Source: Halorussus litoreus
Lineage (GTDB): Archaea > Halobacteriota > Halobacteria > Halobacteriales > Haladaptataceae
Reading direction: 5' to 3'
DNA length: 61,870 nucleotides
Assembly: GCF_003382685.1 (NCBI RefSeq)
Contig: NZ_KZ859516.1
Coordinates: 1 to 61,870 of the forward strand
Shown: one piece after another, positions 27,512 through 41,517 of the stretch
Layout of the letters: every line of letters begins with the position of its first letter
Numbering within the stretch: the stretch's first letter is position 1
Position numbers and translations under genes: made by a program
The notes under the pieces: generated by a model
The model's input: the letters and a program-made list of their open reading frames with translations, nothing else
Told to the model about the DNA's origin: nothing
Database searches by the model: none

Positions 27512-28813
27512 ATGTCATACCACGAACGGCGCAGGGACGTGCTGAAGGGTATCGGCGCTGCGAGTGCTGTGGGCCTCGCTGGCTGTATCGGCGGCGGTGG
27601 CGGCGACAACGCGCCCGACCTGCTGACGGTCATCGGCTACCCCGAGAGCGGCATCCAGCTGTTCCGCGACTACTACAGCGAGTCCGACGGCGAGGAGGAA
27701 GTGCTGATTCCGGACGGGCTTCAGGACGGTGCGATGCCGGGACAGGTCGGCAACGACATGGCGAACGTCACGGGAACCGCACCGGCTGCGGGCGGTCCGA
27801 ATCAGGAAGCGTTCAACTCGCTGTACCAGGACGAGTACGACGAGACTCCGGGTGTGTTCACCTCCCAGTCGTACGATTCGAGCGCGCTCCTCATCCTCGC
27901 GAATGCGGCCGCTGGCGAGAACAGCGGCACTGCCATCCGCGACCAGCTCCGCCGCATCGCGAACCCGGACGGCACGGAGTACGGTCCGGACGAGTTCATC
28001 GACGCGGTTCAAGCGGCCGCGAACGGCGAGAACGTCAACTACCAGGGCGCGTCCAGTTCGACGAACTTCAACGGTGACGGCGACCCCGCCTCCGCGGCGT
28101 ACTCCATCTGGGAGTTCGACGGAGCCGACTCGGAGTCGGTCAACGTCCAGGAGACCCAGAGCTTCGAGGGTGACAGCCCCGACGGGGCCGGCCCGAGCGC
28201 GGACGAGTCGCCCGGCGGCCTCGGTCGCGAGGTCAGCCTCGGTATCCTGCTGCCCGAGACCGGCGACCTCGCGTCGACCGGCGGACCGATGATCAAGGCC
28301 TCGGAGATTCCGGCCAAGCAGGTCAACAACTCCGACCTCGACCTATCGGTCAACGTTTCGTTCGAGGACACCAACACCTCGCCCGACCAGGGAGTCAGCG
28401 GGGCCGAGTCGCTCGTCAGCGGGGGCGTCCCCGCGGTGAACGGCACCGCCTCCTCCGGCGTGAACGTCCCGGTCTGTCAGCAGGTGTTCATCCCGAACGA
28501 GGTCGTCGGCTGTTCGCCGTCCAGCACCGCGCTGTCGGTGTCGAACCTCGAAGACGACGACTACATCTTCCGGACCGCGCCGAGCGACATCCTGCAGGGC
28601 CGCGTGATGGCGCAGGTCGCCTCCGAGCGCCTCGAAGCCGAGACGGCCGCGACGCTGTACGTGAACAACGACTACGGCCAGCAGCTCTCCGAGCGGTTCA
28701 GCAACGTGTTCGAAGACGAGTTCGATGGCGAGGTGTACGACCAGATCAGCTTCAACATCGGCGAGTCGTCGTACTCCAACGTCATCCAGGACGCGCTGTC
28801 GAGCGGTGAGTGA
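27512..28813 (+). CDS. Liv-type binding lipoprotein with circularly permuted halves
   Basis: 433 aa. Signal RRRDVLKGIG with lipobox LAGC (Cys25). In ordinary family members the mature protein begins ILLPxTGDL and the second half begins near xxIGYPxSG. Here residues 36-203 are the usual C-terminal half (PDLLTVIGYPESGIQ ... NYQGASSSTNF ... WEFD). After an acidic linker (about 204-239) the usual N-terminal half follows (EVSLGILLPETGDLASTGG ... IFRTAPSDILQG ... VNNDYGQ), ending IQDALSSGE at the point where the canonical protein would continue into PDLL. The gene converges on livF1. Extracytoplasmic amino-acid capture is the expected role. Confidence 0.85.
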   Translation: MSYHERRRDVLKGIGAASAVGLAGCIGGGGGDNAPDLLTVIGYPESGIQLFRDYYSESDGEEEVLIPDGLQDGAMPGQVGNDMANVTGTAPAAGGPNQEAFNSLYQDEYDETPGVFTSQSYDSSALLILANAAAGENSGTAIRDQLRRIANPDGTEYGPDEFIDAVQAAANGENVNYQGASSSTNFNGDGDPASAAYSIWEFDGADSESVNVQETQSFEGDSPDGAGPSADESPGGLGREVSLGILLPETGDLASTGGPMIKASEIPAKQVNNSDLDLSVNVSFEDTNTSPDQGVSGAESLVSGGVPAVNGTASSGVNVPVCQQVFIPNEVVGCSPSSTALSVSNLEDDDYIFRTAPSDILQGRVMAQVASERLEAETAATLYVNNDYGQQLSERFSNVFEDEFDGEVYDQISFNIGESSYSNVIQDALSSGE

Positions 28814-29092: not shown

Positions 29093-29797
29093 CTACCCGC
29101 CGAGGAACTGCTGGCGGACCTCCTCGTCGTCCAGCAGCGCTGTGCCCTCGTCGACGTACCGGTTCTGTCCGTTCGCGAGGACGTAGCCGCGGTCGCAGCG
29201 CCGCAGGGCCTCCTTGGCGTTCTGCTCGACCATCAGGATCGAGGTCCCGGCGTCGTTGATCTCGTCGATCTTGTCGAACATCTCGTCGACGAGGTCGGGG
29301 GCGAGCCCCGCAGACGGCTCGTCGAGCAGAAGCAGGTCCGGGTCGAGCATGAGCGCCCGGCCCATCGCGAGCATCTGCTGCTGGCCGCCCGACATCGTCC
29401 CGGCCTTCTGGTCCTTGCGCTCTTCGAGAATCGGGAAGCGGTCGTACACCTCCCGGAGCGCGTCTTGGGGCACGTCGTCGAGGATGTACGCGCCCATCTC
29501 GAGGTTCTCCTCGACGTCCAGCGCCGCGAACACGTTGTCGCTCTGGGGCACGTACCCCAGGCCCTTGTGGATGACGTCCTCCGGCCGGGTGTCGGTGATG
29601 TCCTCGTCCGCGAACGTCACGGTCCCGCCCATGTAGGTGGTCAGCCCGAACACCGACTTCATCACGGTGGACTTGCCGGCCCCGTTCGGGCCGACGATGG
29701 TGACGTACTCCTCGTCGTCGACGTGGAGGTCCACGTCGGTCAGGATCTGGAGGTCGCCGTAGCCCGCGTCCAGGCTGTCGACGGTCAACAGACTCAT
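29093..29797 (-). CDS. livF: Branched-chain amino acid ABC transporter ATPase LivF (system 1)
   Basis: 234 aa with Walker A GPNGAGKS, Q-loop VPQSDNVF, signature SGGQQQML, Walker B LLLLDEPSAGL and the H-loop-equivalent region VEQNAKEAL. Ends YVDEGTALLDDEEVRQQFLGG. Overlaps livG by 4 nt at its start. The 279 nt between this gene and the permuted binding-protein gene hold no feature I can identify. Confidence 0.93.
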   Translation of the reverse strand: MSLLTVDSLDAGYGDLQILTDVDLHVDDEEYVTIVGPNGAGKSTVMKSVFGLTTYMGGTVTFADEDITDTRPEDVIHKGLGYVPQSDNVFAALDVEENLEMGAYILDDVPQDALREVYDRFPILEERKDQKAGTMSGGQQQMLAMGRALMLDPDLLLLDEPSAGLAPDLVDEMFDKIDEINDAGTSILMVEQNAKEALRRCDRGYVLANGQNRYVDEGTALLDDEEVRQQFLGG

Positions 29798-30696
29798 ACT
29801 TCACCTCCGAGGTAGGCCTCGATGACCTCCTCGCTCTGCTTGATCTCGGCCGGCGTGCCGTCCTTGAGGACGCGTCCCTGGTGCATGACGATGACTCGCT
29901 CGCAGTTGTTCATGATGAGGTCCATATCGTGCTCGACGATGAGGAACGTGTACCCCTGCTCGCGCAGTTCGTGAATGTGTTCGAGCAGGCGTTTCTCCAG
30001 CGATGGGTTGACACCCGCGAACGGCTCGTCGAGCAAGAGTACGTCCGGGTCGGTCAACAGCGCCCGCGCCATCTCCAGCAGCTTTCGCTGGCCGCCAGAG
30101 AGGTTGCCCGCGTGCTCCTCGGCGAGGTGGTCGATCTCGAAGAAGTCGAGCACGTCCCACACGCGTTCGAGCTGCTCGCGCTCCTGTCGCTGGACGTCGC
30201 CGCGAACGCCCGGGGTGACCGACCGCCACAGCTCCTCGCCGATCTGGTCCTTCGGCGCGAGCATCATGTTCTCCAGCACGGTCATCTCCTCTAACTCGCG
30301 GGCGATCTGGAACGTTCTGGCGAGCCCGCGGTTGGCGATCTCGTGGGGCGCGAGCCCGGTGACGTCCTCGCCGTTGAACTGCACCGTGCCCGAATCGGGG
30401 TCGTGCATCCCCGTGATGAGGTTGAACGTCGTCGACTTCCCGGCCCCGTTCGGGCCGATGAGGCCGGTCAGCGATCCCTTCTCGACATCGAAGCTCACGT
30501 CGTCGACCGCGGTGATGCCACCGAACGTCTTCCGAAGGTTCCGGACTTCGAGCGGCGTCCCACTGTCGAGGGCGACGTCGTCGACCGGGATGGCGGCGTC
30601 AGCGGTCGTTTCGGCGGTCCCTTCTGCAGGTCCGCCACTCTGGTCCGTAGGCTCACTGCTCTCGTCGGCCGGGGGCGCTTCGTCGGTTCCGCTCAC
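29794..30696 (-). CDS. livG: Branched-chain amino acid ABC transporter ATPase LivG (system 1)
   Basis: 300 aa. A disordered acidic N-terminus (about 45 aa) precedes a standard LivG ATPase: Walker A GPNGAGKS, LARTFQIAREL, signature SGGQRKLLEMARAL, Walker B VLLLDEPFAG and VEHDMDLIM. Overlaps livM and livF by 4 nt each. Confidence 0.93.
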   Translation of the reverse strand: MSGTDEAPPADESSEPTDQSGGPAEGTAETTADAAIPVDDVALDSGTPLEVRNLRKTFGGITAVDDVSFDVEKGSLTGLIGPNGAGKSTTFNLITGMHDPDSGTVQFNGEDVTGLAPHEIANRGLARTFQIARELEEMTVLENMMLAPKDQIGEELWRSVTPGVRGDVQRQEREQLERVWDVLDFFEIDHLAEEHAGNLSGGQRKLLEMARALLTDPDVLLLDEPFAGVNPSLEKRLLEHIHELREQGYTFLIVEHDMDLIMNNCERVIVMHQGRVLKDGTPAEIKQSEEVIEAYLGGEV

Positions 30697-32060
30697 TGCT
30701 GTTCACCCCCGTCGGTCGCGGCGGCCTCACCACCGGGTTCGGCGCGCTCGGGACGCGAGAGGTCGATGCTCGCCGCCGTCTCCTTGCGGTGACCGAGCAG
30801 CCCCTCCGGGCGGTTGTGCATCAGCCAGATGAGCGTCACACCCATGATGACGAGCCGGAGCTGTCCGATGCTGTTGAGCGTGTAGACGACGAACGGGACC
30901 GGGTCGAGCGACCCGCCGAGCGCGGCCATCGCCTGCCCGAAGCTGCCGGGCCCGTCGCCGAGATCGAACGCCGCCTCGACGAGGTTCTTCACGTACCGGG
31001 GGCCTTCGTACAGCAGCCCGGCGAACAGGGCACCGCCGAGGACGCTCCCGGTGTTCGAGCCCGCGCCGCCGATGATGAGCGCAATCCAGATGTAGAACGT
31101 GATGTTCGGTCGGAACGACGGCGGCGTGATGGAGCCGCGGCCGCTGTACCACAGCACGCCCGTCAGCCCCATCAGCGCACAGCCCAGCACGAACGACTTC
31201 AGCTTGAAGCGGTTGGTGTTCTTGCCGAGCGCGTTCGCGACCTCCTCGTCCTCCCGGATGGCCTTCAGCACGCGACCGAACGGCGACTCGCCGGTCCACG
31301 TCAGCAGCCAGTAGAAGATCCCGACCACGCCGAGCAGCACGAGGCCGTACGCTAGCCCGTCGACGACCGGCTTCGGGTTGTTGGCGATGAAGTTCGCCGC
31401 CACGAAGTCGACGAAACCGAGGTACGGGTCCCAGAGGTACAGCGCGCGAAGCAGCGCTTCGAGCGGCGACAGGTGATTGAGGATAAGTCCGCCACCGCCG
31501 CCGAGCCCGACGGTGTCGGCCGCGAGGTCGACGCCGAACACGGTGTTGGGCACGTCGAACGACTGGAACGTCCGGGACATCAGCGTGAATCGGACGATCT
31601 CGGAGAACGCGATGGTGACGATAGCGAGGTAGTCCGCGCGCAAACGCAGGGCCGGGAGGCCGACCAGTAGGCCGGCCAGCGCGGCCGCGAGCACGCCGAA
31701 GATCATTGCGACGCCGAGCGGGAGGCCGAAGCCGCCGATCTGGGCGGCTCCACCCTGCGCGACCGGCGGCTTGGCGAATATCGCAGTCACGTACACGCCG
31801 ATCGCCATGAACCCGACGATACCGATGTTGAACAGCCCGGTGTATCCCCAGTGGAGGTTGAGCGCGAGCGCCGCCATGCCGAACACGGCGACGTAGAACG
31901 TGAGGTTCGCCAGCGAGTTGAGTTGACCGCGCAGCGTGTAGCCGAACGCGAACCCGGCGAGCACGTACGCGAGGTAGATGGAGCCGAACACCGCGATCAG
32001 CAGTTTCGGGTCGCTGTCGAACAGCCAGCCGAGCCGACTGCCCTCGTCGGTGTCGGTCAT
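30693..32060 (-). CDS. livM: Branched-chain amino acid ABC permease LivM (system 1)
   Basis: 455 aa from the ATG at 32060, which overlaps the livH stop; an upstream in-frame extension is the livH shadow. Polytopic permease with GYTGLFNIGIVGFMAIG, LRLRADYLAIVTIAFSEI and the ATPase-contact loop SPFGRVLKAIREDEEVANALGKN. The Ser/Glu-rich C-terminal tail is cytoplasmic. Confidence 0.93.
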   Translation of the reverse strand: MTDTDEGSRLGWLFDSDPKLLIAVFGSIYLAYVLAGFAFGYTLRGQLNSLANLTFYVAVFGMAALALNLHWGYTGLFNIGIVGFMAIGVYVTAIFAKPPVAQGGAAQIGGFGLPLGVAMIFGVLAAALAGLLVGLPALRLRADYLAIVTIAFSEIVRFTLMSRTFQSFDVPNTVFGVDLAADTVGLGGGGGLILNHLSPLEALLRALYLWDPYLGFVDFVAANFIANNPKPVVDGLAYGLVLLGVVGIFYWLLTWTGESPFGRVLKAIREDEEVANALGKNTNRFKLKSFVLGCALMGLTGVLWYSGRGSITPPSFRPNITFYIWIALIIGGAGSNTGSVLGGALFAGLLYEGPRYVKNLVEAAFDLGDGPGSFGQAMAALGGSLDPVPFVVYTLNSIGQLRLVIMGVTLIWLMHNRPEGLLGHRKETAASIDLSRPERAEPGGEAAATDGGEQQ

Positions 32061-33169
32061 GCTGTCGTCCTCCCGCTGAAGATTCCCTGCGGCTTGAACA
32101 GCAGGATGACGATCATCACCATGAACGCCGCGGCGCGGCCGAACTCGGAGGGGATCCAGATGACCGACATCGAGGCGGTCAGTCCGATGATGAGGCCGCC
32201 GCCGATGGCGCCGTAGATGGAGCCGATGCCGCCGAGGATGACCGCCGCGAAGATGAGCAACAGCAACAGCCAGCCGTCGTTGAAGCCCAGCGTCCCCTTC
32301 CAGAGGACGAACATGTAGCCGGCGACGCCGGTGAGGCCGCCGCCGATGATCCACGTCGCGCGGACGACCTGCTCGGTCGGGATACCCGTGATGCGAGCGA
32401 GGTCCTCGTTGTCGGACATCGCGCGCATCGCCTTCCCGAGTTTGGTGCGCTGGAGCAGGAGGTGGACGCCCAGCATCAGTCCGACGGCGACCACGGCCAG
32501 CGTGATGTCGTGGGCGTTGATCTTGACGCTCCCGTCGATGACGAACATGCTCAGTTCGGGAACCGACCCGGCCGCCGTGGTGCCCCGGACGTCCGTCCCG
32601 AAGACGAACACGATGAGGTATCGGAGCGCGAACGCCACCCCGACGCTCGTGATGAGCAGGGTGATGCCGCCCTCGTCACGCACCGGCCGGTAGACGAACC
32701 GGTCGATGAACAGGGCGAGGGCGACGGTGCCGACGCCCGCGAAGATCATGCCCGCGATGACGGCGATCGGCGACGTCGTGATGCCGACGCCGAGCGTGCC
32801 GCCGAACACCGAGCCGCCGGCCCCGACCAACAGCAGCGAGCCGACGTTCGCCTCTCCCAGTCCAGCGAGCAGGTACGTGACCGCCCAGCCGGAGAACGCC
32901 CCGCTCGTCAGGTAATCGCCGTGGGCGAAGTTGGCGAAGTTGAGAATACTGTACGTCATCGAGAGACCGATGCTCGCGAGACCGATGATCAGTCCGCGCA
33001 TCAGCCCGTCCCAGGCGTACGACACGAGGTTGTTGAACTCGACGTTCCCCGTGGCGAGACCCCTGAGCAGGAACCACACTAACCAGATGGCGACCAGACC
33101 GACGACCAGCGCGAACGGTTGTTCGCTGGCGAGTCGGCGGCCGCGCACATACGTTTCAGATGCACCCAT
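32057..33169 (-). CDS. livH: Branched-chain amino acid ABC permease LivH (system 1)
   Basis: 370 aa, polytopic, with GLMRGLIIGLASIGLSMTYSI, NFAHGDYL and the coupling segment KLGKAMRAMSDNEDLARITGI. First gene of livHMGF; divergent from the Tat-type binding-protein gene at 33439 across a 269-nt gap containing both promoters. Confidence 0.93.
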   Translation of the reverse strand: MGASETYVRGRRLASEQPFALVVGLVAIWLVWFLLRGLATGNVEFNNLVSYAWDGLMRGLIIGLASIGLSMTYSILNFANFAHGDYLTSGAFSGWAVTYLLAGLGEANVGSLLLVGAGGSVFGGTLGVGITTSPIAVIAGMIFAGVGTVALALFIDRFVYRPVRDEGGITLLITSVGVAFALRYLIVFVFGTDVRGTTAAGSVPELSMFVIDGSVKINAHDITLAVVAVGLMLGVHLLLQRTKLGKAMRAMSDNEDLARITGIPTEQVVRATWIIGGGLTGVAGYMFVLWKGTLGFNDGWLLLLLIFAAVILGGIGSIYGAIGGGLIIGLTASMSVIWIPSEFGRAAAFMVMIVILLFKPQGIFSGRTTA

Positions 33170-33438: not shown

Positions 33439-34836
33439 ATGTCAGAGAAATATCGAACGACGCGGCGGACGTACTTGAAAGCGACCACGGCTGCGGGGGT
33501 GGCCGGGCTGACCGGGCTGTCGGCGTCGGCGGGCGCGCGACAGGGCGGTGCGATCCAGATGGGGTCGATCCTCCCCATCACGGGCGATCTGAGCGCGTAC
33601 GGGAGCGGGATGCAGGAGGCCGTCAACCTCGCCGTGCAGGATGTCAACGACGCGGGCGGGCCGCTCGACCGTCAGATCAACGTGACGAACACGGACAGCC
33701 AGACCCAGCCCTCGCAGGCCATCCAGGAGTACAACTCGCTCGTCAACGAGCAGGGCATCGTCGGGTTCGTCGGCGCGGCCTCGAGCGGGGTGTCGGTCCC
33801 GCTGGCCGAGAACGTCGCGGCCGACCAGGTGATGCAGGTGAGCCACGCGAGCACTTCGCCCGCGCTGGCCGAGATCGGCTACAACGAGGACGGGAGCGTG
33901 AAGTACTTCGGCCGGACCGCACCCAACGACGCCCAGCAGGGCATCGTGATGGGTCGCATCTTGAACGACGGCGAGTTCGTCGGGGCCGACACCGCGGCGT
34001 TCCTCTTCGTCAGCAATCCGTACGGACAGGGGCTGGCCGAGCAGGCCCGCGCGGAGTTCGGCGGGGAGACGACCGCGATGGTCGGCTACGACCCGCAGGC
34101 GAGCAACTACACGTCGACGCTCGATCAGGTGTTCGCCGACGACCCCGACGCGGTCGGATTCGTCGGCTACCCGGGCAACGGACGGACCATCCTCAACCAG
34201 TGGAACGACGGCGGCTACGGCGGCGAGTGGGTACTCAGCGAGGGCCTGAACTCCACGGAGTTCCTCTCGGACCTGAGCGACATCACGGCCGGGATGTACG
34301 TGGCGTCCCCGAATCCGGAGACGACCCGGGGAGCGACGACGTTCGAGGAGAAGATGGGCGATGCCAACACCCTGTTCGCACCCCACGCCTACGACGCGAT
34401 GTTCCTGATGGCGCTCGCCATGGAGGCCGGCGGCGAGGCCAACGGGACGACTATCGCGGAGAACATCCGGTCGGTGTCCCGGCCGGAGGAGGGAGCCTCG
34501 GCCCAGACCACGACCGAGGGAATGGCGGGGACGACGACCGAGGCTGCGCTACAGGACGAGACCACGACCGCGCAGGACGGCGGCGAGGCCGCCGGAAACG
34601 TCGTCACGGTCGGGGAGTTCCAGCGCGCGAAGGACCTGCTCGCCAACGACGAGGACATCAACTATCAGGGTGCGTCCAGCCCGGTGAACCTCAACGAGTC
34701 GCTCGAACCGCTCAACCAGTTCGCCATCATGCAGGTGCAGGATGACGGCTCGACCGAGATCCTGCAGACGATTCCGCGGTCGTTCTTCCGCGGACGGCTC
34801 GGCGGTGGCGGGGAGACGACCACGACGGAGATGTAG
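33439..34836 (+). CDS. Branched-chain amino acid ABC binding protein (system 1)
   Basis: 465 aa. Tat motif TTRRTYLKA with a hydrophobic stretch; no lipobox Cys is seen, so it is probably anchored by the uncleaved signal or secreted. Canonical order: first half SILPITGDLSAYG and FLFVSNPYGQG, second half DAVGFVGYPGNG and INYQGASSPVNL. A Thr-rich insertion (TTTEGMAGTTTEAALQDETT, about 357-380) interrupts the second half. Divergent from livHMGF, its likely partner. Confidence 0.9.
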   Translation: MSEKYRTTRRTYLKATTAAGVAGLTGLSASAGARQGGAIQMGSILPITGDLSAYGSGMQEAVNLAVQDVNDAGGPLDRQINVTNTDSQTQPSQAIQEYNSLVNEQGIVGFVGAASSGVSVPLAENVAADQVMQVSHASTSPALAEIGYNEDGSVKYFGRTAPNDAQQGIVMGRILNDGEFVGADTAAFLFVSNPYGQGLAEQARAEFGGETTAMVGYDPQASNYTSTLDQVFADDPDAVGFVGYPGNGRTILNQWNDGGYGGEWVLSEGLNSTEFLSDLSDITAGMYVASPNPETTRGATTFEEKMGDANTLFAPHAYDAMFLMALAMEAGGEANGTTIAENIRSVSRPEEGASAQTTTEGMAGTTTEAALQDETTTAQDGGEAAGNVVTVGEFQRAKDLLANDEDINYQGASSPVNLNESLEPLNQFAIMQVQDDGSTEILQTIPRSFFRGRLGGGGETTTTEM

Positions 34837-36315: not shown

Positions 36316-36360
36316 CGGCCGCTCAATCTCCGGCCGCTCAATCTCCGGCCGCTCAATCCC
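36316..36360. repeat. 15-bp tandem repeat duplicating the livF2 stop codon
   Basis: Three copies of CGGCCGCTCAATCTC (36316, 36331, 36346; the last with one change) and a partial fourth. Read on the minus strand, each unit gives Ala-Ala-Gly-Asp-stop in frame with livF2, so the gene has three consecutive in-frame TGA codons. Confidence 0.8.
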
Positions 36361-37090
36361 CGGCCGCCTCGCCGCTCCGCCCACCGCCACCGCCGAGATA
36401 CAAGTCGATGACCTCCTCGGTTTCGAGCAGTGCCGCACCGGTGTCCTCGAAGCGGTTCTGGCCCATCTCCAGCACGTAGCCCCGGTCGGCGTTGCGCAGC
36501 GCCTTCCGGGCGTTCTGCTCGACCATCAGGATGGCGGTGCCCGACTCGTTTATCTCGCCGATCTTCTCGAACACCTCGTCGACGAGGTCGGGCGCGAGGC
36601 CGGCGCTCGGCTCGTCGACGAGCATCAAGTCCGGGTCGACCATCAGCCCGCGGCCCATCGCGAGCATCTGCTGCTGGCCGCCCGACATCGTCCCCGCTTT
36701 CTGATTCTGACGCTCCTTCAGGATGGGAAAGCGGTCGAACACCTCGTCCAGCGACTCGCGGGGCACCTCGTCGAGGATGTACGCGCCCATCTCCAGGTTC
36801 TCCCGGACCGTAAGACTCGGGAACACGTTGTCTGTCTGGGGCACGTAGCACATCCCCTCGCGGGTGATCTCGTCGGGTCGCAGGTCGGTGATGTCCGCGC
36901 CGTCGAAGACCACCGACCCGTCCCAGCAATCGATGAGACCGAACACCGCCTTCATGAACGTGGACTTGCCCGCGCCGTTCGGCCCGATGATACAGACCAC
37001 CTCGTCGTCGGCCACGTCCATCGAGACGCCGTGGAGGATCGTCGCGTCGCCGTACCCCGACACCACGTCGCGGGCTTCGAGCAGCGCCAC
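36353..37090 (-). CDS. livF: Branched-chain amino acid ABC transporter ATPase LivF (system 2)
   Basis: 245 aa from the GTG at 37090 (MALLEARDVVSGYG), two nt after the livG2 stop. Walker A GPNGAGKS, VPQTDNVF, SGGQQQML, Walker B LMLVDEPSAGL. C-terminal Gly-rich tail GGGGGRSGEAAGD runs into the 15-bp repeat. Close relative of livF1. Confidence 0.92.
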   Translation of the reverse strand: MALLEARDVVSGYGDATILHGVSMDVADDEVVCIIGPNGAGKSTFMKAVFGLIDCWDGSVVFDGADITDLRPDEITREGMCYVPQTDNVFPSLTVRENLEMGAYILDEVPRESLDEVFDRFPILKERQNQKAGTMSGGQQQMLAMGRGLMVDPDLMLVDEPSAGLAPDLVDEVFEKIGEINESGTAILMVEQNARKALRNADRGYVLEMGQNRFEDTGAALLETEEVIDLYLGGGGGRSGEAAGD

Positions 37091-37092
37091 GG

Positions 37093-38055
37093 TCAACCCC
37101 CCAGGTACGCGTCGATGACGCGCTGGTCGTTCCGGACCTCCTCTGGCGTCCCCTGCATCAGTTTCTTCCCCTGGTCCATGACGATTATCGTGTCGCTCAG
37201 GTTCATGATGACCTCCATGTCGTGTTCGACGATGCAGAACGTGTACCCCTGATCGCGCAGGTTCTCGATGCGTTCGAGCAGCTTGGTCGTCAGCGTGGGG
37301 TTGACCCCCGCGACGGGTTCGTCGAGCAGGATGAGCTCCGGGTCGGTCATCAGCACGCGACCCAGTTCGAGCAGCTTTCGCTGGCCGCCAGAGAGGTTGC
37401 CCGCCTGCTCGTCGGCGAGGTGGTCGAGTTCGAGGAACTCCAGCATCGTCGAGGCCTCCTCGCGCACGTCCTCCTCGGCATTCGCGACCGCCTTCCGGCG
37501 GAACCACGCGTTGGCGAGGTTCTCGCCGGGCTGGTCCTGCGGCGCGAGCATCAGGTTCTCCAGCACGGTCATCCCCTGGAGTTCGCGGGTGATCTGGAAC
37601 GTCCGGGAGAGGCCGGCCTGAGAGACGCGGAACGGCCGGTTGTGCGCGAAGTCGACGTACCGATCCTTGAGTCGCTCCTCTATTTGATACAGTCCCGCGC
37701 CCATGCCCGCGCCCACGAGTGCCGCGCCCCCGAGCGCGAGCGCGGACGCGCCCCCGGACGCCACGACCGCGATCCCCGCCCCGCCGAAGGTGAGTCCCGA
37801 CGCACTCATCCAGATGCCCTGCTCGGCGTCGCTGGGCCGCATTATCCCCTGCAGGTCGGTTCCCCGATAGCGTATCTCCCCGCCGTCCGGCGTGTAGAAC
37901 CCGCTGATGAGGTTGAACGTCGTGGTCTTCCCGGCACCGTTCGGGCCGATGAGGCCCGTGATGGTGCCCTCCTCGACCTCGAACGTCGCGCCGTCGACCG
38001 CGGTGATGCCGCCGAACGTCTTGCGCAGGTCCTCGACGTCGAGTATCGCGGTCAC
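37093..38055 (-). CDS. livG: LivG-type ATPase with hydrophobic insertion (system 2)
   Basis: 320 aa. Walker A GPNGAGKT, signature SGGQRKLLELGRVL and Walker B LILLDEPVAG are intact. Between the strand GEIRYRGTDLQGI and LSRTFQITREL there are about 50 extra residues (roughly 80-135), including a Gly/Ala-rich hydrophobic stretch around GIAVVASGGASALALGG. Soluble LivG proteins, including system 1 here, do not have this. It might touch the membrane or pack against the enlarged permeases. Confidence 0.88.
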   Translation of the reverse strand: MTAILDVEDLRKTFGGITAVDGATFEVEEGTITGLIGPNGAGKTTTFNLISGFYTPDGGEIRYRGTDLQGIMRPSDAEQGIWMSASGLTFGGAGIAVVASGGASALALGGAALVGAGMGAGLYQIEERLKDRYVDFAHNRPFRVSQAGLSRTFQITRELQGMTVLENLMLAPQDQPGENLANAWFRRKAVANAEEDVREEASTMLEFLELDHLADEQAGNLSGGQRKLLELGRVLMTDPELILLDEPVAGVNPTLTTKLLERIENLRDQGYTFCIVEHDMEVIMNLSDTIIVMDQGKKLMQGTPEEVRNDQRVIDAYLGG

Positions 38056-40082
38056 TCGCTCTCACCTCCCACGGCCAGCTTCTCGCCCCACAGCCCCTCG
38101 GGGCGGTAGTAGAGGATGATGATGAGCAGCGCGCCGATGAACGCCAGCCGGAGCGCCTGTATCGACGACTGCATCGCGGTGGGGAAGAATCCTGCTACGT
38201 CTGCGGTCGCGCGCTGGAACGCCCAGTAGATGACTGCGCCGAGGATCATCCCCCGGTTGTTGGCCGTGCCGCCGATGATGAGGATGAGGAAGGCGACGAA
38301 CGTCACCCGCGGGACAAACATGGTGTGGACCAGACTCTGGTAGTAGATGGCGGTCAGTCCGCCGGCGAACCCGGCCATCGCGGAGCCGAGCATCATGCTC
38401 TGGACCTTGTAGCCGAACGAGTTCTTCCCGAGCGAGGTCGCCACGTCCTCGTCCTCCCGGATGGCCTTCAGCACGCGACCGAACGGCGAGTCGACCGTCA
38501 GCTCCGAGAGGTAGTACGCCACCGCCAGCGAGGTCAGGGTCAACACCAGCAGGAACCGCGCGAAGTCGAACGCCGCGGCGTCGAACGTCACGGTTCCTCC
38601 CTGGAACACCACCAGCCAGAGCAGGTTCTCGACGGTGTTGTACGCGACTGCGCTCACCCCGCCGAGTTGGAACGGTGTCACGTTCGCCATGCCGAAGTAC
38701 CGGAGGACGAACAGCCAGAGCGCGCCGACGCCGACGATGCGGACGAACGCGGCGTCCGACCCGACCGATCGGGCGGTCACGGAACCGCCGTCACCGCCAC
38801 CGCCAGCGTTTTCTGGGCTGTCTCGACTCCAGTTCACGCCGAGGTAGTAGATTCCGTAGAGGAACGCGCCGAGAAGCCCGAGCGTCAGGAGCAGGCCGAT
38901 ACTGCTGCTCTCGTCGCCGCCCCCGCCGCCGAGCACGATGAGCGGCAGGAACGCCGCCACGAACGCGACGGCGAGCCCGAGCGCGATTGCGAATTCCCGG
39001 GCCGAGAGGTCGCTGTACCGCCGGACGACGGCCACGCCGCCGAACACCCACGTGAACAGCGAGATCGCGCCGAGGAAGACGAGCAGGACGGTCGAGGAAC
39101 CGCCGGTCAGCAGCATCGCGACGAACGCCACCGTCGCGGTAATCGCCCCGGCAGTCGGCACGTGGCGCTCCCGGACGCCGTAGAACACCGCGAGAGCGGC
39201 CGCGAGGACCACCAGTCCTAGCCACCACTCGAACGCGAGCCAGGCGACGATTCCGGCCGCCAGACCGAACAGCGCGCCGACGCCGAGGAGCGCGCGGCGT
39301 TCGGTCTCGCCGGTCGGGGTTCTGGCGCTCCGTGCCGCGCCGTACCCGATCCCGAGGGTCGTCAGCGCGAGGAGGCTGTCCACGATCTTCCCGCGCATCC
39401 CCGGCCCGGAGATGGTCCGGCCCGCGGTGACGCCGCCGTCGGGCCTGACGCCGCTGTCGGAACGGTCGCCGCCGTCGGACCGGACCTCCGCGGGCGGGCG
39501 CGAGTCCGAGTCGGCGAACTCGGACTCGCGTCCGCCCGACTCGCGGCCGGTGTCGACCCGGGCGAGCGCGTACGTCGCTCCGGTCCACAGCACGAAGACG
39601 ACGAACCCGAACAGCGCGGCCGCCGCGAGGGTGTCGCCCGGGAGCGGGAACTGCGTGCGGAACGGCTGGTCGAAGCCACGCAGCGACCCCGGGCCGTTCG
39701 CCAGCCAGCCCTCGGTCTGGACGATGCGCTGGAGGATGACCGAGATGCCCAGCACCGCGATGGCGAGGTAGTCTTCCCGGAGCCGGATGGCCGGGAGCGC
39801 GACCAGCATGCCGACTACCCCGGCCGCGAGGGTCCCCACCGCAATGGCGGGGAGCCACGGCCAGTTCAGCCCGAGAATGTACGAGGCGAACGCCTGCTCG
39901 CTCGCCGGGGGCAACACCAGCAGGGCGGTCACGTACGCGCCGACGAGATAGAACGCGACGTGGCCGATGTCCAGCAGGCCGGTGTAGCCGAACTTGAGGT
40001 TGAGTCCGAGCGCGAGAATGGCGTAGATGCCCACGATGGTTCCAAGCGAGACGATAGTCGAGGATAAGGCCACGCTATGCAC
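38052..40082 (-). CDS. livM: LivM-type permease with large central insertion (system 2)
   Basis: 676 aa versus 455 in system 1. The first part is a normal LivM (GYTGLLDIGHVAFYLVGAY; IRLREDYLAIAVLGISVILQ) and so is the end (SPFGRVLKAIREDEDVATSLGKN; ILYYRPEGLWGE). The middle (about 190-430) adds an Arg/Ser/Asp-rich linker (RESGGRESEFADSDSRPPAE) and about six extra hydrophobic segments. GTG start at 40082 overlaps the livH2 stop by 8 nt. Confidence 0.87.
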   Translation of the reverse strand: MHSVALSSTIVSLGTIVGIYAILALGLNLKFGYTGLLDIGHVAFYLVGAYVTALLVLPPASEQAFASYILGLNWPWLPAIAVGTLAAGVVGMLVALPAIRLREDYLAIAVLGISVILQRIVQTEGWLANGPGSLRGFDQPFRTQFPLPGDTLAAAALFGFVVFVLWTGATYALARVDTGRESGGRESEFADSDSRPPAEVRSDGGDRSDSGVRPDGGVTAGRTISGPGMRGKIVDSLLALTTLGIGYGAARSARTPTGETERRALLGVGALFGLAAGIVAWLAFEWWLGLVVLAAALAVFYGVRERHVPTAGAITATVAFVAMLLTGGSSTVLLVFLGAISLFTWVFGGVAVVRRYSDLSAREFAIALGLAVAFVAAFLPLIVLGGGGGDESSSIGLLLTLGLLGAFLYGIYYLGVNWSRDSPENAGGGGDGGSVTARSVGSDAAFVRIVGVGALWLFVLRYFGMANVTPFQLGGVSAVAYNTVENLLWLVVFQGGTVTFDAAAFDFARFLLVLTLTSLAVAYYLSELTVDSPFGRVLKAIREDEDVATSLGKNSFGYKVQSMMLGSAMAGFAGGLTAIYYQSLVHTMFVPRVTFVAFLILIIGGTANNRGMILGAVIYWAFQRATADVAGFFPTAMQSSIQALRLAFIGALLIIILYYRPEGLWGEKLAVGGESE
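39491..39538. repeat. 21-bp inverted repeat inside livM2
   Basis: 39491-39511 and 39518-39538 are reverse complements except for one position, around a 6-nt loop. It encodes the Arg/Ser/Asp linker at the start of the central insertion. Confidence 0.7.
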
Positions 40083-41517
40083 CCCCCGTGATGCCTTCCG
40101 GTTTGACCAGCAGGACGACGAGCAATACCGCGAACGCGATGGGAATGCGGTAGGTCGACGAGTCGATGCCGGGGAGCGCGAACAGCCCGACGTCCATCGA
40201 CAGCCCGACGATGTAGCTGCCGAGGATCGCGCCGTACACCGAACTCAGCCCGCCGAGGATGACGCCGGCGAACATCGGAAGCAGCAGGAAGAAACCCATG
40301 TTGACCGTGAGCTGGTTGAACAGCACGCCGAGCATCACGCCAGCCACCGCAGCGAACGCCCCCGCGATGATCCACGTCGCCATCATCACCCGGTCGGTGT
40401 TGATACCGGTCGTCTTCGCGAGATCGAGGTTATCGCTGGCGGCCCGCATCGCCTTGCCGAGCTTCGTCTCCTGCAGGAGGAAGTGGAGCGAGCCCATCAT
40501 CAGGACCGCGATGACGACGACCGACGCCCGCATCACCGAGAGTCGGACGCGAGTCGAGAATCCAGCGGCGTCTGGCACCGACCCCGAGCCGGCGAGTGCG
40601 ACCGCCGAGACGACGAACGCGACCAGTCCCAGCACCGCCGCGGCGAGCTTCGGGCCGAACGTCCGGGCCGCGCCGAACTCGTCGCCGCCGCCGCTCCGCC
40701 ATCGGTAGCCCAGCACCGCCGTGCCCACCGTGAGGACGAGTACCGCGAGTACGGCGAGCCACGAGTAGTTCGCGGTGAAGATCGGTTCGGGGGGCGTCGA
40801 GCCGGGGTCGACCGCGTTCAGCACCATCCCCGCGTCGGTGACGTAGAGGTCGTAGAAGTTCGCGGCCGAGAGTTCCACGTCGAAGCCGAAGATCGAGCCC
40901 ACGTCGGGGACCTCATAGGTGCGAACGTCGCCGCCGTAGAACGCCTGCGTGCTGAACCGGAGCACGAACGACAGTCCGAGCGTGACGATGAGCATCGTCG
41001 CGAGCGACGCGCCCTTCTCGCGGAACTTCTGGAAGATGACCTTTTCGAGCAGCGGTGCGACCGCCGCCAGCACCGTGGCAGCCAGCAGGAGCCCGGCCCA
41101 GATGGACGGGAAGCCGATTACGACAGCACCACCGAGCGCGGCGGCCGCGAGCGCGTGGACGCCCAGCGCGAGCCACGCCGGTGGGTCGCCCGGCCACCAC
41201 GAGCCGGTCAGCGCCGCCGCGCCGCCGAGCAGGTACACCGCGGCGAGCGCAGCTCCCGCAGTCAGCAGGAACAGCACGGCGTACCCGCCCGTTCCGACCG
41301 TGCGCTCGGCGGCCAGCAGCTCGAACACCGGCACGGTTCCCGGCCGGTTGACGAACAGCGCGACGTACGCGCCCAACATCAGCAGTTCGCCGTGTGCGAA
41401 GTTCGGCACCTCCGCGATGTTGTACACAAGCGCCAGCCCGATGGCTCCGAGCGCGACGACGCTCCCGGTCACGATGCCGGTCACCACCGCGTTGGCGAGC
41501 TCGGTGCTAGGTGCCAC
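40075..41517 (-). CDS. livH: LivH-type permease with extra segments (system 2)
   Basis: 480 aa versus 370 in system 1. Core LivH features: GLALVYNIAEVPNFAHGELLMLGAY, KLGKAMRAASDNLDLAKTTGI and VILGGLSSVYGAILGSYIVG. Two additional regions (about 85-150 and 255-320) are hydrophobic with linkers such as YRWRSGGGDEF. First gene of livHMGF system 2; no binding-protein gene adjoins it. The 258 nt upstream (41518-41775) should contain its promoter; I see no clear TATA. Confidence 0.87.
   Translation of the reverse strand: MAPSTELANAVVTGIVTGSVVALGAIGLALVYNIAEVPNFAHGELLMLGAYVALFVNRPGTVPVFELLAAERTVGTGGYAVLFLLTAGAALAAVYLLGGAAALTGSWWPGDPPAWLALGVHALAAAALGGAVVIGFPSIWAGLLLAATVLAAVAPLLEKVIFQKFREKGASLATMLIVTLGLSFVLRFSTQAFYGGDVRTYEVPDVGSIFGFDVELSAANFYDLYVTDAGMVLNAVDPGSTPPEPIFTANYSWLAVLAVLVLTVGTAVLGYRWRSGGGDEFGAARTFGPKLAAAVLGLVAFVVSAVALAGSGSVPDAAGFSTRVRLSVMRASVVVIAVLMMGSLHFLLQETKLGKAMRAASDNLDLAKTTGINTDRVMMATWIIAGAFAAVAGVMLGVLFNQLTVNMGFFLLLPMFAGVILGGLSSVYGAILGSYIVGLSMDVGLFALPGIDSSTYRIPIAFAVLLVVLLVKPEGITGGA

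Follow-up and report, generated by a model that had tools for sequence, protein, structure and literature searches.

We found that the gene at 27512–28813 (+ strand) of the 61,870-nucleotide stretch of Halorussus litoreus DNA analysed here (the window) very probably encodes a genuine, functional and naturally circularly permuted type I (Liv/HAAT) substrate-binding lipoprotein (SBP), whose permutation is recurrent and arose from a canonical ancestor at one locus. The open reading frame has an ATG start, a TGA stop and a length of 433 aa. It begins with a Tat-type (twin-arginine-like) signal, MSYHERRRDVLKGIGAASAVGLAGC, with the lipobox LAGC and a predicted lipidated Cys25 (27512–27586, +); Pfam TAT_signal gave a weak match, under the family cut-off, on signal residues 7–24. 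Comparison with relatives placed a Gly-rich spacer, IGGGGGDNA, between lipobox and domain (residues 26–34; 27587–27613, +). The native C-terminal half then comes first (residues 35–220, PDLLTVIGYP..QSFEG; 27614–28171, +), followed by a linker from native C-terminus to native N-terminus, DSPDGAGPSADESPGGLG (residues 221–238; 28172–28225, +), and the native N-terminal half comes last (residues 239–433, REVSLGILLP..DALSSGE; 28226–28810, +). This chain order was read from the order of the Pfam and PDB matches. Pfam Peripla_BP_6 (PF13458) matched the 433-aa protein with 87.9 bits (cut-off 31.7) in two stretches, and in the best one protein residues 240–432 corresponded to profile positions 1–190, so that the C-half stands before the profile start. 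In the Streptococcus pneumoniae LivJ structure 4gnr, chain residues 7–186 matched query residues 240–422 and chain residues 263–319 matched query residues 97–155. Judged from these matches, the product is a PF13458 homologue with changed topology and not a canonical-order member.

The initial annotation had described swapped halves behind the lipobox, and the Pfam, 4gnr and half-wise BLAST results bear this out. It had also placed the break correctly, at DALSSGE / PDLLTVIGYP, where canonical sisters are continuous. The linker that it had drawn at 204–239 does exist, but its real extent is 221–238, since residues 204–220 are the native C-terminal tail. Its reading of the linker as a normal post-lipobox spacer did not hold, because the linker (18 residues in the window protein) carries a motif shared across a large permuted clade (clade A below), FEGxxPxGAGPSADESPGG, and is not a Gly/Asp lipobox spacer. 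The gene used there as reference for the normal order (33439–34836, +) is indeed a canonical-order Liv-type SBP by Pfam and half-wise BLAST, but it is merely a distant paralog, with 35% and 25% identity per half, and serves for comparison only. Tandem arrays of two or three canonical SBP genes of this type were seen in two genomes of the same genus (L310 and L311 of G010 and G013).

The informative canonical sisters are those at the same locus in other genomes. Canonical-order members of the same subfamily, found in a survey of 392 Halobacteriales genomes, had 50–58% identity. Their C-terminus, ..VDTIEFEA*, falls at the point where the permuted linker starts, and their domain start after the Gly-rich spacer, ..REIKYGVLMP, falls where the linker stops. 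At the cut they are uninterrupted and read ..SSYTSRLQSALGDDPDLLVVIGYPASG.. and ..SALGDDPDLLVVIGYP. Thus the permuted protein corresponds to one full circular turn with no evident loss. Both of its segments have their homologue in a single protein, where they stand in the opposite order, and the halves are complementary, which is the mark of a natural permutation.

The permuted order is widely conserved. Relatives with 58–86% identity were colinear with the window protein over residues 1–432 in many independent assemblies, several of them single-contig; within the genus, full-length colinear copies were present in three other genomes (79–83%) and a two-piece copy in a fourth. Among named genomes 22 loci were found (Halorubrum, Halobellus, Halorussus, Haloglomus and others), and BLAST of the halves separately gave the permuted order in 20 of them. 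In the survey the query was doubled, so that the match start reveals the cut point, and the permuted form was present in many families. The search for same-order homologues elsewhere, likewise proposed at the outset, yielded 121 distinct proteins with the window-type order (perm1) in the loci read, together with 6 distinct proteins carrying a second cut (perm2). The dN/dS of the window gene against nine relatives was ~0.2, which means that the permuted gene is under purifying selection. The widespread clade topology, the recurrence at the same cut and the second cut in relatives all went beyond what the initial annotation had expected.

Some members of the subfamily, with permuted and canonical ones among them (L006, L023, L098), have no lipobox cysteine and keep a twin-arginine-like signal. 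In nine Haladaptatus-like genomes (L085–L093) a tandem pair of permuted SBP genes lies at the liv locus, with a lipobox in the first SBP; the second has no lipobox cysteine (e.g. ..GLMGTLQQGGGPDML) and might therefore be exported by Tat as an unlipidated protein. Halorussus halobius has two identical-looking permuted SBP and liv copies on different scaffolds (L007/L022, L040/L041); either a large region was duplicated recently or the assembly contains it twice.

To count origins, a careful tree of 79 rows was built with both halves rearranged to canonical order and with close canonical outgroups. It gave one large permuted clade, clade A (support 100/100). Group C (L121, L166, L167) is permuted and lies outside clade A as sister to canonical L168/L169 (100/99), and group B (L172; L120/L186/L187; L180 and kin) is permuted and lies outside clade A amid other canonicals. 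Three perm2 lineages are nested within clade A, apart from one another. AU tests rejected all permuted proteins as a single clade (p = 7.6e-5) and perm2 as a single clade (p = 6.9e-13); the pairwise groups A+C (p = 2e-4), A+B (p = 0.007) and B+C (p = 5e-4) were also rejected, in tests defined post hoc with the tree already seen. In the rooted tree the canonical order comes out as ancestral. We conclude that the window-type cut had at least three origins and that the second cut had three more inside clade A; group B may hold between one and three origins.

The perm2 proteins of L051 and L053 had been taken as canonical by half order, and on reading the sequences they turned out to be a second permutation: they start with LEINPTVEDT and end with ..EVNEADLDIS, they keep the same linker, and their N-to-C junction is restored. 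L205/L206 and L264/L277 show the same kind of second cut at slightly different residues, and the genomes G525 (L277; 4 contigs) and G526 (L264; 1 contig) are nearly complete. By the trees and topology tests, perm2 is a second permutation stacked on the window-type one, with its cut in a lobe-1 loop.

These results bear on the rival explanations in different ways. The initial annotation had left room for a rearrangement or assembly artefact, in which the window assembly would have split a canonical gene and joined its pieces wrongly. The window comes from a draft genome in 75 contigs, but the ORF is intact and conserved, and the same order and linker are shared by more than 100 distinct proteins, which come from independent assemblies and in part from genomes in a single contig, so an artefact is for practical purposes excluded. 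The natural circular permutation that it had named as the other choice is supported by the colinear relatives in independent assemblies and by the half trees. A fusion of two paralogs, with the C-half taken from a truncated copy and the N-half from a different one, would find its raw material in the tandem Liv SBP genes of Haladaptatus-like genomes and Halorussus. However, the N-half tree and the C-half tree agree on the placement of clade A, group C and the perm2 lineages, which indicates that one gene was permuted and not that two paralogs were fused; the halves are also complementary with no evident loss at the cut, and we consider such a fusion very unlikely. Slightly less remote, and still improbable, is a single permutation after which canonical order was regained several times. 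The canonical N-to-C junction can be seamlessly restored, as in L051, and an early quick tree with distant outgroups had its root within perm1. That root was superseded once closer outgroups were used and the canonical rows came out basal. A single permutation also has against it the canonical order of relatives outside the haloarchaeal order (295-genome phylum sample), the mutually dissimilar linkers of A, B and C, and the three separate perm2 lineages, which persist under any rooting. Recurrent permutation of one gene is therefore the reading that we keep.

For the mechanism of REARRANGEMENT, the literature offers duplication-based permutation and fission–fusion as models (PMC3320104). Under the latter, a recognised general model, the halves would once have been separate genes that were rejoined in the other order, but no split halves were seen at the locus in ~90 neighbourhoods, and we give this route only a small chance. 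The most likely DNA mechanism, to which we assign about an even chance, would be that the gene was duplicated locally in tandem and the copies were then fused in frame and trimmed. Separate tandem copies do occur at the locus in Haladaptatus-like genomes. None of the 331 ORFs in the loci retrieved was a fused duplicate or held more than one turn. Two open frames of 924 and 1005 aa were considered as fused intermediates, but each contained a single SBP, and in the G010/G013 tandem arrays the long frames were not fused SBPs. Beside the permuted genes no remnants of discarded halves were detected at E<1e-3, intact tandem copies aside.

The permuted SBP gene is convergent with a liv gene cluster on the minus strand, consisting of genes for LivF-like ATPase (29093–29797), LivG-like ATPase (29794–30696), LivM-like permease (30693–32060) and LivH-like permease (32057–33169), assigned from the ORF list and neighbourhood comparison. 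The arrangement SBP> <livF<livG<livM<livH was common to canonical, perm1 and perm2 loci in ~90 neighbourhoods. All topologies thus occupy the same syntenic place, which indicates that the order changes happened within one orthologous locus. The window contains another livFGMH-like operon ~3 kb past the first (36353–41517, −), with no SBP gene directly adjoining, and CBS-domain and asparaginase-like genes come after it.

Both halves contribute to the predicted ligand site. Tyr43 and Asp68 lie in the native C-terminal half and Ser315 and Thr339 in the native N-terminal half; the four align with sites in solved Leu-binding proteins, were invariant in 20 permuted proteins and are kept in the aligned canonical sisters, except for Tyr43 to Phe in some. 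In LIVBP, Ser/Thr serve the carboxylate, and an acidic residue and Tyr serve the ammonium side. Because of the conserved synteny and the conserved ligand residues, the protein would be the amino-acid-binding subunit of the neighbouring Liv permease, and most likely it delivers amino acids to LivHMGF.

Structure prediction, which the initial annotation had also proposed, answered in part: the second half matched LIVBP (model residues 207–401 to LIVBP 1–194, Z 7.6) in an AF2 model that was moderate overall (mean pLDDT 62.6, pTM 0.63). Against PDB, Foldseek and VIA gave half-matches as well as lobe-swapped ones (5er3, Z 10.7), which we attribute to the pseudo-symmetry of the lobes rather than to kinship. 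Each of the two cuts in the model separates a helix from the strand that comes after it (helix 390–398 / strand 5–9; helix 225–240 / strand 246–254). Such helix–strand loops in the type I fold are located at the lobe pole, away from the ligand cleft. The chain would start behind the lipid anchor at a normally internal helix-to-strand loop of lobe 2, run to the native C-terminus, pass through the new linker to the native N-terminus and end on the other side of the starting loop. By this path the usual two-lobe amino-acid-binding fold would be expected. The tether would be at the lobe 1 pole in the canonical protein, at the lobe 2 pole in the window protein and at lobe 1 again in perm2, so the main physical effect would be a shift of the lipid tether from the lobe 1 pole to the lobe 2 pole. 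We offer as a tentative idea that the locus repeatedly re-opens its SBP at the same helix-to-strand loops and so switches the tether lobe, either by selection on tether position (Tat export, permease docking) or because the Gly/Asp-rich spacer repeats promote recurrent rearrangement of the DNA.

Compared with LivJ/LivK-type (HAAT) proteins (2LIV, 3TD9, 4N0Q, 4GNR), both halves are homologous, the ligand-site residues align and livHMGF adjoins, but the chain order is swapped and the native ends are joined through a linker. TpMglB-2 (Tp0684) of Treponema pallidum is also a naturally permuted type I binding protein, proposed as ‘Type Ic / Cluster Bc’ (PMC4990184). Like the window protein it is a lipid-anchored type I SBP whose natural permutation is common to a set of relatives; it is glucose-binding and bacterial, whereas the window protein is Liv/HAAT and haloarchaeal, and the adjoining livHMGF argues against a sugar ligand for the latter. 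In TpMglB-2 the first three N-lobe strands moved to the C-terminal end. In the window protein the cut is in the second lobe (canonical residue ~195), before PDLLTVIGYP, and about half of the protein moved; the moved part is the whole N-half of ~195 residues, which differs from the strand arrangement of Type Ic / Cluster Bc. For the permuted segment of TpMglB-2, sequence identity was too low to prove common origin, and its authors raised tethering as a driver of permutation (PMC4990184). In the haloarchaeal case, unlike TpMglB-2, canonical sisters with >50% identity exist at the same locus and the permutation recurs, and the haloarchaeal locus is a sharper test of the tethering idea. Permuted DNA methyltransferases and swaposins are other natural circular permutations, with several orders in the methyltransferase superfamily (PMC3320104). 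Those are old events among distant members, whereas in the haloarchaeal SBP a single syntenic locus has several orders in orthologs that are closely related, and one permutation is stacked upon another.

The literature searched, which left most subscription papers outside its scope, held no earlier description of permuted haloarchaeal Liv proteins, and the recurrence of the permutation appears to be undescribed before. The usual view of natural circular permutations is that each is an ancient event that happened once and separates distant proteins. The locus studied here has close orthologs in canonical, once-permuted and twice-permuted form, all with the same set of partner genes. Colinear methods align just half of such proteins, so the topology is missed in routine annotation. 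The locus opens direct tests of how permutations originate, which cuts the two-lobe fold tolerates and whether chain order is constrained by anchoring, and the folding cost of permutation ahead of Tat export is also testable. The SBP family is thus a natural test case for chain-order change in proteins.
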